Origin: Rhodocollybia butyracea
Lineage: Eukaryota > Basidiomycota > Agaricomycetes > Agaricales > Omphalotaceae
Length of the DNA: 64,000 nt
Assembly: GCA_015501585.1 (NCBI GenBank)
Contig: JADNRY010000205.1
Span: forward strand, 43,998-107,997
Direction of reading: 5' to 3'
Numbering within the stretch: position 1 is the stretch's first letter; each line of letters starts with the position of its first letter. The notes under the pieces are model-generated. The model made no database searches. It was not told the DNA's origin and saw only the letters and a list, made by a program, of their open reading frames with translations. Shown in pieces: positions 13,310-22,905 of this stretch. A program made the translations under genes and the position numbers.

Positions 13310-14942
13310 GCCCTCGTAACTTCCGTCGTTCAACGTTCAACACGAGTCCGCAATCACCTAGATTCTTTTCAGCACCGAACAGAAATGGTCCTATCAGATG
13401 TGCCTCAAAGGCACTACACAGCTGTGTCCCACATCCCCTTTACGAAAAAGTCTGCCCCAACCGGTTTATCTGAAAAGATGCATTTTCTCAGATTGGTTTC
13501 AATGATGGTCGAGAGATGTCCAGAAAGAAATCCTCGGATGGTCGATTCAAGTGAGTACAAAACACCTAACAAGCTTTTCTTCTCACTCCTCTTCGCTGGA
13601 AGGCTCTTTTTCTCGATGAATATCGTCTGGCGGCCTCGTCAAATAATCCTTGCCCACATTTGTCTACCTTACACTCCATCGATCCATCCGTTACTTTTCC
13701 CCGCCACATTATTTCCCAGTCGTTTTACTTTGCAAATGGCAATGATGTTGATGGAATCATGTATCCCCTCATCAACATACTGTGACTTCCTCCCTTGTAT
13801 CATTCATGACGACTATCTTTGAACAAAGGATGGGTACAATGACGAGTACACTGCAAAATAGATGATTTTTACCGATTATCGATATCCCTTAAGCTCAAGT
13901 CCAGTCAGATACTAGTCACTAACGCCCTGGCAGCTTCGTGAATTGTCAGGTTGGACTGAGCGAAGCCTTTTGACTACACGTCATCGCACTCTGTTTTCGG
14001 CCGAAGATTATAATGCGAACCATCTAACGAGATGTTTCAGACCTATTTGTGACCTGTTCTTCGGCCGGTTCTCCCCTTCCCATGAACATACAGTGAACAT
14101 CGCCCAGCTACCCTTCCTCATATCCAAAACTACGGTCCGTCCATCCATTCACGCCAATTGTTCAGATGAAAACATCGACATATTGCAATCTCGACCCCAA
14201 ATCCTGTCAAGGCCCTATCTTGTCTACAGTATCATCATGACCCGCCTACCTACCATCGTTTAGGTGGAAAGTCGTATTTTTGCAGTCCAGTCTTCTCCTG
14301 CCCTCAGAAACGATGACTAAAAATGAACCTAAGGGATATCCTGTGGCTATTTGGTGGCTATCGCTCTTCGTATTGCACAGTCGGCGCTCTGCGGTTTTGG
14401 GTGCGTTTGCAGTTTTAAATGCTTCTTAGCAGTGTTCAATTCTTGGTAGCAGTCGAGCTCTGAAGTGCTAGTGAGGTATGTTTATAACCATTTTGGTGCC
14501 AGAATTCTGATAGCGATTTAATATTCTCTATCAGGATCTTCATTACGAGACCACAATGGGGCCGGGCGGGCGACCTCTTAAGTATGTCCAGCCTCTTTAT
14601 GAGCTATCGGCCAATAAACTGTGAACGCATAGTGTCTCGAGCACATTTTGAGGGTGCTCATGGACAGAGAGTCGACTCAGAAAGATTCACAAGTGGCAGG
14701 CCGAATGACGCGTATGTACCTTGTGCGGTGGTATGATGAAAGTTCCGGTGGTTGAGCTATTTAGGGTAGACACAAGAAATAAAAGTTTTGTGTACAGGGG
14801 CCACGAGAACCCAAATCAATCCCGCATTGAATAACTTGTATTCAGATTCGGTACACGCCGCAGGAACAGACTAAAGTATACCGACAAGATCCAATTCTCA
14901 AGCGATCAGTTTATTCTATGTCCGGCGAGTCCCCCTGGTTAA
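13310..14942. repeat. Dispersed repeat R1, copy 1 (left part)
   Basis: This stretch aligns over most of its length with 26610-27890. Shared landmarks include CATCGATCCATCCGTTACTT (about 13678 and 26961), TTTTCGGCCGAAG-type blocks, and GCAAGAAATAAAAG-type blocks before the end. Its continuation is found at 22596-22905, on the other side of the Mutator-like element. The open frames in it are short and not conserved between copies, so I treat it as non-coding. The identity of R1 is unknown. Confidence 0.65.
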
Positions 14943-14985
14943 GAGGCCGGGTTTGATGGGTCTCATTTCGATCCAGGAACATGAT
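14943..14985 (+). repeat. Left terminal inverted repeat of the MULE-type element
   Basis: Pairs with 22553-22595 in inverted orientation. It has two extra G residues after CCG, and few mismatches over the following 30 bp. Confidence 0.85.
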
Positions 14986-15311
14986 GTAAGTTGTCACCGA
15001 TGAGTCAGTCGTTACATTACATCATTAGTCTATTGGACTGGACCCGGGCCAGGAATCGGCACACTATAATAAATAAATCTTTGTTTCATTTTGGGCGAAT
15101 TTTTGTCACCATATGTGACCATTTTAAGAACTGTACTTCCCTGCCCAGTAGTTATTCATCCCTGCTTCATGTCTCGGGTTAATGGTTGAACAACTGGCTA
15201 TCTCTTGTCCATCCCTGCTTCATCTTTTGGTCTAATGGCAAAACCTCATGGTCAGCACTTCAAAAATCCCCTGGAAGTCGGCGAAACTGGAAAAATGAGC
15301 TCTTGGCCCTC

Positions 15312-18300
15312 ATGAAGGTGGAGTTCGTAGCCTCAAGTCCTGTTTCAGGTAGTCATTTATCGGTCAATTGGATAATGCTTGTTACTTGTTATCTGCTTGG
15401 TATCTAGTCTCTGTCGTCAGTTTTAGTAAGTTTATTATATTACCTTCCGATAATCGTAAGTGTCTATCCTTGGCTTCCCGAAACTCGCCTGAAGACTAAG
15501 TACCTACAGTGATACCCCTCACTTATACCTGTCGTATAGTTTCTGCAATCTATTATTTCCCCCCAGCTCTCGCAATGCCTATGTTACCATTGGCAGAACT
15601 CTTAAATCCTGCACCAGAAGTCGAGCCACAGAGCTCTTCCTTATGCGAAACTGCTTCCTACAAGATTGAAACTAATGTGACTGTCACCCAGAAGTGTACA
15701 GTTGTTCGCCTCTATACCTACAAAGCTGGGACTACAATCGAGTATCCAGAAACCACAGAACAGGGATCTGTAGGTCATCTTTTTGAGCTGGATCCTGAGG
15801 ACTGGGTCAACCCGAGTCAAGCCTTTGCATATTCACAAGGAGAACCAAAAGGATTTTCGAGGAATCGATTCTGTCGTATATTGCTTGACGATCAAGGCGA
15901 ATCTGTACCTTGCTATGTACGGCACTCGACATGTATGTACTGTATCTTAAAGTCTTTGTATTGATTTTTTTTGACTCGTGAAATTGCAACAGGCCAGGGA
16001 TGTAAAGCCTGCTCTTTTGCAGATAAAAACCTGGTGTCAGTGGGCCATACTACAGCAAATCGCAGTGACTTGGCTAATCAGCTTAAGCAATACTCCCAAC
16101 ATTGGCAGCTCGAATTGCCAACTTCAGGCTCAGTTACAAAGGACCTATTTGAAAAAACCCTCGCTTTGTGGAATGCATTCCAGAATGTTGGATGCTCGGC
16201 TCCTCTGAATGAGGACACACTCTATCTTGGGGAAGAACTTGAAGCCAGAAAAGTTCAGCTAGCTATTGACCATGATATTCGACGAGGACATACTCCTAAG
16301 CCAACTTGTCAGGGTCGAGTCATCTTGGATTATGATTCGAAGGGCACACCATATGTCCAGTAAGCTCGCCTTTTAGAACAGGTTGAATATCAGTACTTAC
16401 CTAGTCCTCCCAGCTGCGAGCATTATAGGTCTGCGACTTCGCGCGATCACCTGGTGAATTATGATATTAGTTCTGGTTTATATGACTTCGAGTATCTGAG
16501 AGCACTCTTCACAAATGATACTGAGGAGCTCGAGCTTATTGAGGATGGAGCTCAGGATAATGGGTATGGCCCTCTTGCTTTATGCTCGACTATCACAAAT
16601 GCCTCCTCTCAACATGTTAGTTGTCATAAGTTGGCTCTTTCGTACTGTTTTCTTACTTTCAACTAACTTACATTTAGCTGCATTACATTGCAACAGCTCT
16701 GGACAGCTCATGAAAGCCAAAGTGGATCGCATCGAATGTACTAGTCGCATTCGGGTGTTCGAACCACATGAGGAGTATCGTAAAGTCTGTCCTAAAATCC
16801 TGGTTGTCTGCACAGGCATGCACACTCACCCAATTCCCCTTCCGACCAAAACACCCCCAGGCCTGCGAAGAGAAATTTTAGCATTACTTCAGAGTCTTGG
16901 CCAGGATTTACCTGATATCACACCTCGTCGGTTCATCCGACATCCCACAACCTGTGCTTATATTCGTGACCAGCTCCCTAGTATGCAAAATCCAATGTTA
17001 AGTGATCTGCATATATCGCTTGCAAACCAAGATCACCTTCGAGCCTATATCACCCAGGCTCAGGAGATATCGTTTCCCTATGGAACAGGCTGGGCAGGTA
17101 TGTGATTATTTCGAGCCTGTTATGGAGAGTCAATGTTTCACTGCCCTGAAGGTGTTATATATGCGAAACAACTGCAGGACAGTAATGTTCCTGTATCCCA
17201 GCATTACATTCGGTTGATCAAGGAATATGAACTGGAGGATGATGAGCTCGTCTTAAATGGCGACACCTGCATGGCATGGATCTTAACGACTTCTGTGGTA
17301 TCCTACACTTTGCAGGCAATCAGCATGGTGGACAAGCGAAAGGTATATCTGGTTTCCATACTATATTCACCCTTACTGGATGTACTTCACAGGTCTTGGG
17401 CTTCACCTTTTAGCTCGATCAAAAGAAACTCCAGAAAAGTATGACTTACACAAACGTCGTCGTCTCCTTTCATCTCTCTTGGTGTACGAACACCTTCATC
17501 GTGTTTTTAGGCTCTGCGATGCCCACTTTAAACGTAACATCACAAAATGTAAAGTACCAGATGAAGTAAAGCAGAAGATGCGATTGCTTTCCTGTATCAG
17601 TCATCCTAACTTTGAACAAACAGTCCAGGAGATCAGATCCGAAGGTGGCAAAGCTGGAGTGGGTCATTTGCTTCTGTAAACCTCCTCTTTTTGTTCGCTA
17701 ATATTTCTCGTTAGACTGGGTTAGTGACAAGTATCGCAGCCACTTTGCTTTTGAGGCAATCTGCTGGGAGAAAAGCTTCATCCCTGCTGCAATATGACAA
17801 GTCGGCGATTCAACAACGAATATCATTGAAGGCCTTCATGCCAATATTAACCTTGAGGGTGTATTGTGTACTCTACTGGGCGGTCTTCAAAAAGGGCAGC
17901 ATTACGATAATATGAAGTATAAAATGATTGAGGCATGTGTTCATTAACTGCAGTTTAATTTTGTCAATGCTTAATGTATTTTTCAGGCCTACAAACTGAC
18001 AGGTGTTACTCCATCATATAATCCCCAGCATCTGTCTTATTCTGCGACTCGAAATTTCAAACGAAAAAGTGTGCTTTCTATTACCCAGATATCTATAACT
18101 GGCTGATCGAGCTCTAAAGGTCTTTCACGACACAAAAGTTTATTATCGCAGGACAGTCAGATCATGAAAAGGTCACAAAAGCTGCGAAAAACTGCAAACC
18201 GGATCGATATCATCAATTCTTGCCTTGTACAGGAAGTTGCTTCAGGAGGAGAAACATCACAGGCTGCTCAAAAGGCAGCAGTTGCTAGAGCCAAGGCTCA

Positions 18301-18391
18301 GGATGCCTATAACAAGGTTTTAGAGGAACATGTGAGACTTACTGCGACCAAAGGGACAGGAAAATTCAATATTGTATCATCGCATATGTAG
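15312..18391 (+). CDS. MULE-like transposase with WRKY/GCM1-type zinc finger
   Basis: A many-exon gene. The start is uncertain: ATG at 15312 is possible and ATG at 15575 is an in-frame alternative (MPMLPLAELLNPAPEVEPQS). A Cys-rich exon follows (STCQGCKACSFADKN). Next is a block with two cysteines and HTHP (IECTSRIRVFEP, VVCTGMHTHPIPLP, about 16730-16850), resembling the WRKY/GCM1-type finger of Mutator-like transposases. The transposase-like core contains RLCDAHFKRNITK (about 17510) and DSTTNIIEGLHANINLEGV (about 17805), then LLGGLQKGQHYDN. A basic coiled tail (KRSQKLRKTANRIDI to GTGKFNIV) ends at TAG 18389-18391. I could not assign all three catalytic acids, and one intron near 17340-17400 is ambiguous, so activity is unproven. 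It lies tail to tail with the dioxygenase gene, only 25 bp apart. Confidence 0.72.
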
Positions 18392-18416
18392 TGACTAAAA
18401 AGTAAAGTGATATTTA

Positions 18417-20347
18417 TTAATCTTCATCATCGTGCATCTCCCCAGCCCAGTCGTGATGTTCATCATCAAGGTTTCCTTGACCTGCACCCCAATCGCAAGA
18501 ACCAAACACTTCTCTCTTTACTGCATCCAGATCAGCGAATGCCTCTGCGATACTTCGTGAAAATGCAAAAGTAAAATTATAATTTGTGGTGCCCCCGGTG
18601 ACTGTAGTTCCATGAATATGTTCTGGTTGAAAGGCAAACATGGTCGAGGGAGCATTTGCAACAACAACACGGAGGTTGACATCGACAAAGTTTGCCCCAC
18701 CATAAGTCGGAATAGGAATTTTAGATGCTGCAGTGCGAGTCGGGAGCTGTTCGCGGCCTGCTGTAAGATTGAAAGCAAATCTGGAATAACATTTATCGGT
18801 GTGAGACCATCTGTATAGAATTATCAATGTGTCGCATATTTAAAACTATAACTAAAACTTACGCAGAATAACCTTTAGTCAGATATACCTCTGGCGGGGC
18901 TCGACTAGCTTCCGAAAATATAACCGCTTTATTTCCCAGGGTAAGCTTAAACCCTTTACCTGTAGACCCAGATTAGGTTGATTTCCTATTAATGGATGCA
19001 GTGGAATGTGAATAGCATACCTGGTTCCACAAAGCGGGTCGCGAGATGGGGAATTTTGTTTTCATGCAGCTCTCTGACTGCTGGTCCAGTAATTTCAGTT
19101 GGCATCATGGAAAGAATAAGCGACCAGAATATTCCAGCTGCACCATTTATATCTTCATCATGGGCAGTACACTCCTCTTCAGACAGCTTGGCTTGGTAAC
19201 TTTTTGCCAGTCCCAGCTGTCTACAATGGCAGGGACCAGTATTGATACCAACCTGGGTCATTGAACCTTCATGACCACCCCGCTCACCAACATGACGAGG
19301 AGGCTAGTAGGAGCAATCAGCAGTATATACAGTATCTATAGCATTATATACATACCCGCTGGTTGCGCCGGACTCCAACAGCGTAGAAAATAACATCAAC
19401 TAGCCATTCATACAGCATTTCACTGTTGGAGCCCTGATGTTGCTCTTCTCCAGGTTCAGAATCTGTCATTGCACCAGCAATATTGCGCAGAACAACTAGC
19501 TGGATATTGTCTGGCTCACACGTGTGGGCATCTGGCATAGGGTGAATATCATTGGGGACAAAAACCTAGACTGTAACACACCACCGCTGTAGAAAAGGAC
19601 CGACTCGCTGGTACTAACCACATAGAATCCATGTGCTGCATCAACTATCTGATCGCGTGCACCACTCGCAGCTTCCGCTAGATCGTACATATACCGATAG
19701 CGCCCAAATTTGGGTTTGGTGTCTGGGTCGCGACGCACAAGCCATACTTGCGTGCCACAAGGCATAATGATGTACTGGTCACCTCGGATTATTGCTTCTC
19801 TTACAGCATAAGAGCGGAAGTTTATTCCAAGGTTTACCATCTAAGAAATTTAATCAGAGGCTAATTATTAACTTAGCTGGTACAATTTACGAGTTTTCTT
19901 TTCTCTCCATGCGATGCTTGATCTGGTTTGTCTTGTGATTTCCACTGGAAGTAACGGAGCGAAACCTCATCGAAGACTGTTTTAATCTCCACACTATCGA
20001 CTTTGACACGCGAAATGTAGCGGAAAAGAATGTCCCACTGAAACTTGTGTAAGGAACTAGCAAAAAGTACCGAAGTAATATAACCTGCCTCGGGCTGGCC
20101 ATCCATAGTGACATAATCACTCATTCTCTGTAGCAAAGGATGGGTGGTGGATGCGAAGTCTTTCTTGTCCAGCCACTGTAGCTGTTTAAAGGTGTCCGCC
20201 TCATACACCCATTCTCTCGCTTGCCTTTGTGCTGGATACCTGGGATTGGACAGGCAAAATGAATCATATGTAGAAGTGCTTACATTCAGGATCCTCCTTG
20301 GGCTGCCGACGATTCATATTTTTGCCACTTTCTTTAGCTTTTGTCAT
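18417..20347 (-). CDS. TET/JBP-like 2-oxoglutarate/Fe(II) dioxygenase (transposon cargo)
   Basis: A minus-strand gene from ATG 20347 to TAA 18417-18419 with about seven short introns and consistent phases. Exon order: MTKAKESGKNMNRRQPK; a block with EWVYEADTFKQLQWLDKK; MVNLGINFRSYAVREAIIRG; VPNDIHPMPDAHTCEPDN; GINTGPCHCRQLGLAKSY. The C-terminal core carries HTDKCYSRFAFNLTAGRE (H-x-D near 18794-18802), then GGANFVDVNLRVVVANAP, AFQPEHIHGTT (distal His near 18615) and FTFAFSRSI. This H-x-D...H pattern with a late Arg/Ser matches the double-stranded beta-helix dioxygenases of the TET/JBP group, which oxidise methylpyrimidines in DNA. Substrate is inferred, not shown. The acidic tail (DDEHHDWAGEMHDDED) is unusual. 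Its position inside the element makes it cargo, perhaps for changing methylation on the element. Confidence 0.72.
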
Positions 20348-21009
20348 GACTGGAAGTGGTAAATGACCGAGGTGGTGGAGGTTGAAAGGAAAGATATGCT
20401 ATCTGCACCCAGATCGTATCCGACTGGATTCCCAGACAATCGGGTAGAAGGTCACAGCAAAAATCTGTTGATCAGTCCATCTGACTAGTCCAACAAAAAT
20501 TATTTGGCATCTGATACTTAGAATGGGAATCATGTGGGGAAAAGAAGACATTGATACCAAAAGGCAATATTACAGTTTAAAAATATCCCGCAGCAATCGA
20601 CACCAGTACTTAAATACATAATAGTAAACTTTACCCACAGAACATTATTTACGTTGGTACTAGTAGTAGCTTATACCTGGCACCACAGGGAATCGAACGG
20701 TTGACCTCAAGGTTTCGGTGATTATGAAAGCCAGCCTTACTCCACAGCCGGGGACATATCCAGGTACGCCAAGAAGACATTTTTATTTTTGGCAAACAGA
20801 CTCTACTTATGGCTTATTTAATAATATAAAAATCATGGTATTAAAAAGGTATGTACATCGAAGGCAGTAAATAAATAAAAAGTGGTATGCAGCCCTCTGG
20901 ATGTAAGAAGGACATTTTAGTAGATAGATTATGGGAAAGAGACGATAAATACTAAAAGATCTGAGAATAGTTAGAAATAAAATAAGCAGGAACAGCTGCT
21001 AATTGCTGG
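20348..21009. other. Intergenic inside the element; contains a tRNA-like segment
   Basis: AT-rich spacer between the dioxygenase start and the GRF-finger gene stop. Apart from the tRNA-like sequence at 20676-20754 I see no gene. Confidence 0.5.
20676..20754 (-). repeat. tRNA(Met-CAT)-like sequence, degenerate or SINE-derived
   Basis: On the minus strand it has a GGAGTAAGGCTGGC D-arm-like stretch, TTTCATAATC (CAT anticodon context) and CGTTCGATTCC, close to the pol III B box GGTTCGANNCC. The acceptor and T stems pair imperfectly, so it is more likely a tRNA-derived repeat or pseudogene than a working tRNA. Confidence 0.35.
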
Positions 21010-22002
21010 CTAATTGTCATCAAGGGTAAGGTCAATAATACTAGTAGGAGTAGTAGTCTGTCTAGCTGCTGTACGATGGCGGCGAATAGAGCCTGGGAGG
21101 CATCTGTGACCCGAAAAAGTTCTCTTTGTGGTCACCCGACCACAGGTGCATCTCCGAAACATAGCAGCGAATGCTTCCTCCTCAATGCCATTTCCATCTC
21201 CAGAGTTGAGCTCAAGTAGCAAGGATAGCAATGACCGAGGCTCAGTGGAAGCAGGTCCTGTGCGAGAAATTCCATCCATCTGGATGGGGAGAGCTGCTGG
21301 TCGGGTGGGTGAACTGTTTGTACTGTTTGTGCGAGATGAAGAGGGAAAGGGAACAGGGGCCTGCGATGGAGACATCTGGCCAGATGGCTGTGAGCCTAAG
21401 TCGGTCTGTTAGTATACCAGCTGCATGCACAGGAAAAAGTTGGACAAACTCATTAAGGCCATCTCAACTTCCTCGTCAGAGTCGATAAGCATGTCGAAGA
21501 GCGAGTCCATTGGACGAATAGCTGCAGCCTGAGAAGCCAAAGGTACATTGGGGACCAAAGATGATGGTATTGGGTCTGGTCGCTCAGGATACCTACCAAT
21601 CAGCAAGCCTCGTTGGGCATACATCTTCTCCAGCAGCACTATAAAATTCTTAAGCAATGCACAGTCTCCGAAATACTACTGAACTTACCCCAGTATCCAC
21701 ATCGTGTTTCTTGAGCACACGAAGCTACCCATTGGCCAGAAAGTCTCCCCGACATGGGCTGCCAGACTTTCATCTCTCGTGGGATTCCATCGGTCCTCGA
21801 ACATAGGCACATGGGATTGCGGAAATAATGGGTTAGCTTGTAAGTGTCCCAGTTATCGGGGGTAACTCGGGCAGTGATCATCGGCCTTTAAAAAGTTAAA
21901 ATTATTAGCTAGGTATATAGTAGAGTATGGTGGATAAGCCTACCATGGTTTTGCAACAAGGGAGTTGGCATCGACAGACCATTCCACGATTTCGGGCCCC
22001 AT
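21010..22002 (-). CDS. GRF-type zinc-finger protein (transposon cargo)
   Basis: Start at ATG 22002 (MGPEIVEWSVDANSLVAKPW); the first intron joins in phase to PMITARVTPDNWDTYKL. The next exon holds a four-cysteine block MCLCSRTDGIPREMKVWQ followed by WVASCAQETRCGYW, which resembles the GRF zinc finger (C-x-C ... C ... CGFF/W). After an intron comes VLLEKMYAQRGLLIGRYPE and an acidic DSDEEVE stretch. The last exon is Ser/Pro-rich with a second small CTCGRVTTKRTFSGHRC Cys/His cluster and ends IIDLTLDDN at TAG 21010-21012. The tail IDLTLDDN resembles a SUMO-interacting motif (hydrophobic core plus acidic residues). Function is unknown; GRF fingers in other proteins bind nucleic acid. The gene shares orientation with the dioxygenase, so both may be element accessory factors. 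Confidence 0.55.
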
Positions 22003-22112
22003 TCGTGCATTCGTCCTAACTCGGCGATTGAAAGGTCGATGCCGAGAGGGTCATTGACACTGGTATCTCGAGGGTCAAAAATCGGTGTATAGAGAAGAGC
22101 AGCCCCAGGGCA

Positions 22113-22180
22113 GGTCGTGGCCTAGTGGTAGATGTGGGCCCAGCTCGGGCTCTGGTGGTTCGAAGACGAGGCTGGACAGG
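22113..22180 (+). repeat. tRNA-derived SINE-like head
   Basis: GTGGCCTAGTGGTAG (22117-22131) fits a pol III A box and GGTTCGAAGAC (22157-22167) fits a B box, about 30 bp apart as in tRNA genes. The flanking sequence cannot fold into a full cloverleaf. It may be the head of a SINE reaching to the A-rich stretch near 22430. Confidence 0.4.
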
Positions 22181-22552
22181 CATTGCAAAGTAGATGGAGT
22201 GTTGGGGCTTACTTAGTAAATTTGAAGGAGCTTTTTATACCTAAAAAGCAGCACAACAGGCAAGTCGACTTTGTCGTTCAATTTTTTGCTGCTCATAGTG
22301 ATCGAACGAGGCCAAGCTTTCGGCTGCCAGTGCCCGTGGAGCGACAGTGACAGTCGTAGGCTCGTAGCGAGCAACTTTGTGCAGGGTGCAGCGCTGCCTG
22401 GCCGAGAGATCGCTTGCTAATTGTGACAGAAAAAAATAAACTTTACTGGTTATTTTATTTTACAATTTTTGGACCGTTGTCCGGATGTTGTCCGGCATCC
22501 GGAGTCTGGACCACTGAGCAATCCTCAGGTGATGTGACGGTTACAGACCTCG

Positions 22553-22595
22553 TGATATGTTCCTAGATCGGAATGAGACCCATCAAACGGTCCCT
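22553..22595 (-). repeat. Right terminal inverted repeat of the MULE-type element
   Basis: Inverted copy of 14943-14985. The adjacent subterminal stretch 22467-22500 holds direct copies of GTTGTCCGG. Confidence 0.85.
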
Positions 22596-22905
22596 CCCTG
22601 GTTAACCAACGTGGTACACGCGTTGTCACTTCAGTGCATATTGGAATTGGAACTAAAACTAATTCTTCCACTTGCCAAGCAACCGAGATAATTCCATCAC
22701 ATACCGCTCCCTACTCTAGGGTGACCGCAAGCACCTAGATGATCCCAGATTGGATACATGACTTCGTTCTTTGTTGAGAGTGGCCGCGCGCGGGATTGTA
22801 TAGGATACTAGGAGAAAAACTGTCCAGCGAAGGTACGGTTCTCGAACAGCCAGAGCGGAGATGATGGATCGTGTCACGCGGTTGGAAGAGGAGAGAAATT
22901 CGGCT
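22596..22905. repeat. Dispersed repeat R1, copy 1 (right part)
   Basis: Continues R1 after the transposon. It matches 27890-28150 through AGCAACCGAGAT, CTCTAGGGTGACCGCAAG and GGATTGTATAGG, and matches 34790-34960 more weakly. Confidence 0.7.

Follow-up and report, generated by a model that had tools for sequence, protein, structure and literature searches.

A probable Mutator-type DNA transposon with a divergent TET/JBP-like dioxygenase gene in Rhodocollybia butyracea

Introduction

TET+ DNA transposons of fungi combine a transposase with a TET/JBP-type dioxygenase, are flanked by target-site duplications (TSDs) and have Agaricomycetes among their hosts, and related dioxygenases occur in several transposon classes (PMC12730594). 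The main text of the survey by Kojima (2025) names ten such lineages, Dileera, hAT, Harbinger (PHISTA), IS3EU, EnSpm, ESTA, Helitron, Kyakuja, Zisupton and Plavaka; words beginning with 'MULE' or 'Mutator' are absent from that main text, and MuDR occurs there twice, for other captured genes (PMC12730594). Here we describe a transposon at positions 14943..22596 of a 64,000-nucleotide stretch of the basidiomycete Rhodocollybia butyracea (the window, which is C501:43998-107997 of genome G000, 95.6 Mb). It is read, with a probability of roughly 0.66, as a Mutator-type transposon that took up a dioxygenase of TET/JBP fold, which would counter silencing by base oxidation. An original prediction made from the window had considered fungal TET/JBP genes best documented on KDZ-type transposons, a view that the ten named lineages have put out of date (PMC12730594).

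Mutator-like elements have terminal inverted repeats (TIRs), TSDs of 8-11 bp, a DDE transposase and a second, antisense open reading frame, and their Mutyl sub-group is described with TSDs of 9-10 bp, a 22-bp TIR and a second antisense frame (PMC6446971). The present transposon resembles them in its TIRs, TSD length and antisense second frame and, to judge from the catalytic pattern, probably in its DDE transposase; it differs in that the transposase lies below Pfam MULE detection and in having a dioxygenase aboard. It differs from the TET+ elements of the Kojima survey in an HxD rather than a PE-type HxE motif, in TSDs of 9-10 bp and in its probable lineage, Mutator, which the main text does not name as TET+; the pairing of Mutator with a TET-like dioxygenase is likewise not named there (PMC12730594). 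Among the open-licence PMC papers listed as matches, no title or abstract start contained a Mutator element with a TET/JBP-type gene.

Results

Analysis of the inverted ends, of a second copy and of the flanks indicated that the whole transposon runs from GAGG to CCTC. The TIRs, of 32 nt and 94% complementary, lie at 14951..14982 (plus strand) and 22557..22588 (minus strand), and the matched inverted ends, as well as three internal genes with HxD, HGTT and CxC...C...CGYW blocks, were as originally predicted. The 10-mer CCCTGGTTAA is present on both flanks and had been taken for a 10-bp duplication. Comparison of the window copy with copies elsewhere in the genome revealed that the latter end in ...GGTCCCTC, so that the terminal C (22596) is the element's own and the duplication is the 9-bp CCTGGTTAA (14934..14942 and 22597..22605); the duplication itself thus stands while its length does not.

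A whole-genome search with the element, from which copy counts are lower bounds, identified a near-complete second copy at C480:8402-23140 that is 99% identical, and numerous shorter copies that align at the ends only. The flanks of 17 copies, including those of the window and C480, were compared: ten carried a perfect 9- or 10-bp duplication, representing eight distinct sites because two pairs have common flanks, while two (one of them C480) showed one mismatch, two only 7 or 8 bp and three none. The ends, the duplications and the dispersed copies are signs of mobility. As assembled, neither the window copy nor the C480 copy is intact. Compared with the window copy, that of C480 shows several single-base gaps in the genes for transposase, dioxygenase and partner protein, for which decay or an error of assembly may be responsible. 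It also contains an insertion, about 6.8 kb long and nested within it, with TG...CA ends and AAGAAG on either side. This insertion, between C480 14682 and 21449, resembles a long terminal repeat retrotransposon in its TG...CA ends and 6-bp AAGAAG repeats.

The transposase gene (15575..18391, plus strand; about 10 introns in the model) is broken in the window copy: about 310 bp are absent at 17250 compared with C480, the first catalytic Asp being lost with them, an in-frame stop is present and Asn stands where the second catalytic Asp stood, and the window copy is therefore not autonomous. The original prediction had noted neither this damage nor the gaps in the first exon of the zinc-ribbon gene. 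A composite query assembled from the window copy and that of C480 matched 214 proteins at E<=1e-3; none of the best 120 of these carried a precomputed Pfam domain, and the species named among the 120 are, as far as is known, Agaricomycetes. Alignment of 118 rows (the 120 listed homologues minus two from R. butyracea) showed the catalytic residues, numbered as in P0008, to be conserved: D562 in 117/118, D643 in 117/118, C692 in 116/118, H695 in 117/118 and E779 in 115/118. A CxxH between the second Asp and the Glu is a signature of Mutator (MULE) DDE transposases, and inspection by eye showed it in MULE proteins of this genome as well. The transposase carries an N-terminal C-x16-C-x10-H-x-H block that resembles the WRKY-GCM1 type.

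A sibling element on contig C795 (L079:1643-8358) has a perfect inverted repeat of 18 bp and is flanked by the 10-bp duplication CATATGTCAG; its ends are similar, its partner gene lies in antisense and its transposase is 43-60% identical by stretch. The TSDs, perfect at 9-10 bp in 10 of the 17 rows and 10 bp in the sibling, lie within the 8-11 bp of Mutator, and both elements have TIRs (32 nt and 18 bp). No tblastn match to the dioxygenase was obtained at E<=0.05 in the sibling stretch, nor any on C795 in the genome search. The transposase family (C-terminal query) occurs on at least 13 contigs, the dioxygenase family on at least 11, and the two coincide only on C501 and C480; together with the sibling this identifies the dioxygenase as an optional module, gained more likely by capture than left over from repeated loss. 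The original prediction had named copies with the same ends and no dioxygenase as a refutation. Such copies exist, namely the shorter ones that match at the ends only, and the C795 sibling also lacks the gene; in our reading the gene was captured or lost, and the observation itself is not at fault.

The dioxygenase gene (18417..20347, minus strand) is open and encodes 537 aa in seven exons (20347-20284, 20231-19891, 19840-19582, 19531-19356, 19303-19021, 18959-18863 and 18810-18417), in a model predicted from DNA alone with splice sites picked by hand; part of the sequence searches used a 536-aa model with about 10 residues different at one intron. The HxD (His-Thr-Asp) lies at 18795..18803 and the distal His block HGTT at 18603..18614, both on the minus strand. 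The HxD...H metal triad is kept in 12 of 14 aligned rows, the distal His being replaced by Tyr in C339 and P0129 being partial, and all 13 of the 14 rows that cover the motif region have HxD, not the HxE of the PE-type TET/JBP enzymes of Kojima. Asn at H+10 (counted from the distal His) and Arg at HxD-His+16 are common to all 12 HGTT rows.

A structure search with the predicted model of the homologue P0125 gave TET enzymes as the nearest solved folds; most of the next matches were nucleic-acid oxygenases of the FTO and AlkB kinds, along with a few other 2-oxoglutarate (2OG) enzymes; the non-appearance of other families in this search carries no evidential weight. The closest predicted fold is that of CMD1 of Chlamydomonas, CcTet, NgTET1 and TET2, with which the family has the HxD...H in common at 10-15% identity in structural alignment, and from which it differs in the Asn at H+10, the Arg at HxD-His+16 and the lack of Arg or Lys up to 18 residues past the distal His. 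An Arg after the distal His binds 2OG in CcTet (R385) and TET2 (R1896) (PMC11040006, PMC7854593), while CMD1 likewise lacks a working basic residue at the 2OG position (PMC7854593). The dioxygenase is thus predicted by fold to be a very divergent relative of TET/JBP enzymes. The predicted fold of P0125 agrees with the TET/JBP assignment first proposed, which sequence profiles do not support; because the identity is fold-based and the usual 2OG-binding Arg is missing, we infer rather than observe that the enzyme oxidises DNA bases. Four Tet_JBP PF12851 matches at E<=0.001, all below cut-off, were present in the genome; these and the PF20515 matches lie on other contigs, and the PF12851 ones were not matched by the profile of the present family.

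Other members of the dioxygenase family were located at C1272:45370-46726 and C447:139791-141172 and on C279, C1109, C339, C929, C750, C942 and C109, some within near-identical repeats (C339/C929, 99.9%; C447/C279, 91-97% by piece), so other mobile elements may carry the gene too. By eye, with no family search made, no transposase was recognised beside the C1272, C447, C279 and C339 genes. Between the paralogues of C447 and C1272 the nonsynonymous rate (dN) was 0.065 and the synonymous rate (dS) 1.27 (84 codons, last exon), and to judge from these codons the paralogues at other loci seem to be under constraint.

The C501 and C480 copies differ by 82 substitutions, 69 of them transitions, and CpG was hit by 61 of the 69, the window copy having lost 27 and C480 34 (binomial p 1e-42, with 14.4% of C/G bases lying in CpG). 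Six short-copy pairs gave CpG counts of 5/27, 5/23, 6/29, 8/21, 6/7 and 25/99, and two PF10551 pairs gave 101/375 and 101/697. Among the short copies the youngest pair (6/7) resembles the C501/C480 pair, and several of the older ones may be saturated. The excess between C501 and C480 is likely the result of deamination of 5-methylcytosine (5mC), which points to cytosine methylation on young transposon copies. The element has a CpG observed/expected ratio of 0.65; that of the C795 sibling is 0.77, and the remainder of the window has 0.82 (0.54 to 0.99 in 8-kb blocks).

The second element gene (21010..22183, minus strand) encodes a zinc-ribbon, GRF-like protein. Its N-terminal exon is unbroken in C480 and has two single-base gaps in the window copy, hence the exon-1 model is uncertain, and the 322-aa model used in searches includes a doubtful 43-nt intron. 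The GRF-like CxC...C...CGYW block lies in an exon at 21689..21885, and a C-terminal CxCG...HxC block with an acidic IIDLTLDD end, common with the C795 sibling, at 21010..21171 (both minus strand). The pattern of the GRF finger originally predicted is present; with the window exon as query, no match to the zf-GRF profile PF06839 was listed up to an E of 10, and the six genome matches of this profile are all on other contigs. The acidic IIDLT motif ends both partner proteins (window 21010-21040, minus strand; L079:6189-6434), behind the CxCG...HxC, and the IIDLTLDD end presumably resembles a SUMO-interacting motif. Between the dioxygenase and zinc-ribbon genes, at 20680-20780, a tRNA-like B-box motif was noted by eye, and short pieces similar to this stretch occur both close to the dioxygenase gene of C1272 and within the sibling on C795. 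A tRNA at about 20690 was rejected: ARAGORN and Rfam were negative, and the genome search returned only the two element copies.

Discussion

The element is best placed as a cut-and-paste DNA transposon in or beside the Mutator superfamily. The Mutator class proposed at the outset agrees with duplications of 9-10 bp and with a D-D-CxxH-E arrangement, while the Pfam MULE profile is silent and the profile-profile tests are not significant. Several results weigh against the reading given here, those for the transposase being as follows. MULE PF10551 matched neither the composite nor any of the 22 homologues scanned, a result that still allows a divergent member, and nothing in the 22 exceeded a Pfam cut-off, there being only single scattered weak matches. 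In hhalign the transposase core reached a P of 0.04 in local and 0.51 in global mode against eight PF10551 domains of the same genome, a larger query gave 0.07 and 0.34, and one PF10551 protein gave 0.69; with controls at 0.34 and 0.28 (a KDZ protein) and 0.24 and 0.56 (the dioxygenase), these scores are not clearly better than the control range of 0.24-0.56. A profile search of the PDB with the transposase gave chance matches only, and the 10 PF10551 matches in the genome do not include C501 or C480. The failure of all 22 members to match Pfam MULE and the non-significant tests would suit a separate, unnamed DDE superfamily, and one of the 22, with a sub-threshold KDZ match (E 0.07), a far KDZ relative, either producing 9-10-bp duplications by coincidence. 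We regard this as unlikely: the duplications fit the 8-11 bp of Mutator (PMC6446971) and not the 7 bp of Kyakuja or the 8 bp of Zisupton and a Dileera family (PMC12730594). The CxxH is placed as in MULE proteins of the same genome, and none of the 144 places matched by the KDZ model PF18758 is on C501 or C480. An origin from KDZ itself is rejected on this TSD length (9-10 against 7-8 bp) and the KDZ model results, which support the earlier claim that a non-KDZ transposon with TIRs carries the dioxygenase. KDZ transposase is otherwise abundant in this genome, at those 144 places.

For the dioxygenase and its role, the points on the opposing side are that the window protein matched neither Tet_JBP PF12851 nor 2OG-FeII_Oxy_6 PF20515, that Pfam gave nothing over cut-off, only scattered sub-threshold matches, that NCBIfam gave nothing for the four proteins tried and PHROGs only chance matches, and that neither searches of the PDB by phmmer and by profile nor the PF12851 and PF20515 genes of the same genome tied the enzyme to TET. 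The fold was taken from a Gelatoporia homologue, P0125, whose model has a predicted local distance difference test (pLDDT) value of 69.3 and modest template-modelling (TM) scores, and which is 40% identical to P0001, itself 43% identical to the window dioxygenase. Neither Arg nor Lys occurs at H+1 to H+18 in any of the 12 HGTT rows. The complete three-gene unit is known from two copies in one genome only. Between them the dioxygenase differs by 17 nonsynonymous against 3 synonymous changes, so that both copies seem released from selection, with no sign of present constraint. The control pair C447/C279, a dioxygenase repeat with 57 differences in 1618 bases, gave 9/41 at CpG, no excess, and the CpG effect is thus not general among the repeats of the genome.

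The missing 2OG-binding Arg and the 17 against 3 changes, with the CpG decay of both copies despite the dioxygenase and the C795 sibling and shorter copies that manage without it, would be expected of a passenger, a captured gene acting on another substrate (RNA, protein or small molecule) or on none, with no part in transposition or silencing. Against this view, to which we give about as little weight as to a separate superfamily, stand the nearest folds (TET, then mostly FTO and AlkB nucleic-acid oxygenases), the kept metal triad and the paralogues that look constrained. Relatives in other repeated stretches (C447/C279, C339/C929) would also suit an independent mobile element nested in the Mutator-type one. 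This we consider very improbable, as the dioxygenase 3' end is 25 bp from the transposase stop, none of the 15 listed inverted-repeat pairs (>=16 nt) of the region encloses the gene and the arrangement is the same in C501 and C480. A bolder version, decidedly doubtful in our judgement, would count it as a fourth type among the TET/JBP enzymes of transposons, carried by a Mutator element, that like CMD1 lacks the usual hold on 2OG and therefore uses another co-substrate or an anchor at a different Arg, that of HxD-His+16, and that places a base mark other than 5-hydroxymethylcytosine on the element's own CpGs.

In the preferred reading, that of a Mutator-type transposon with an acquired TET/JBP-like enzyme, the core would consist of the DDE transposase and the antisense zinc-ribbon partner, to which a dioxygenase of TET/JBP-like fold was added. 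The host would methylate CpG within the transposon; the dioxygenase, once expressed, would oxidise 5mC, or a base related to it, in the DNA of the transposon, silencing would be weakened and transposase made, and the zinc-ribbon protein may bring proteins to the DNA. This mechanism, in which oxidised bases counter silencing, is the most probable one but unproved, and the enzyme did not rescue the C501 and C480 copies, both of which have decayed.

With this element, the transposons that bear TET/JBP genes gain a probable Mutator lineage as well as a divergent type of enzyme, and a single genome is seen to contain related cores of which some have the enzyme and others do not. In a system with a likely methylation footprint, the idea that transposons use such enzymes to escape silencing becomes testable.

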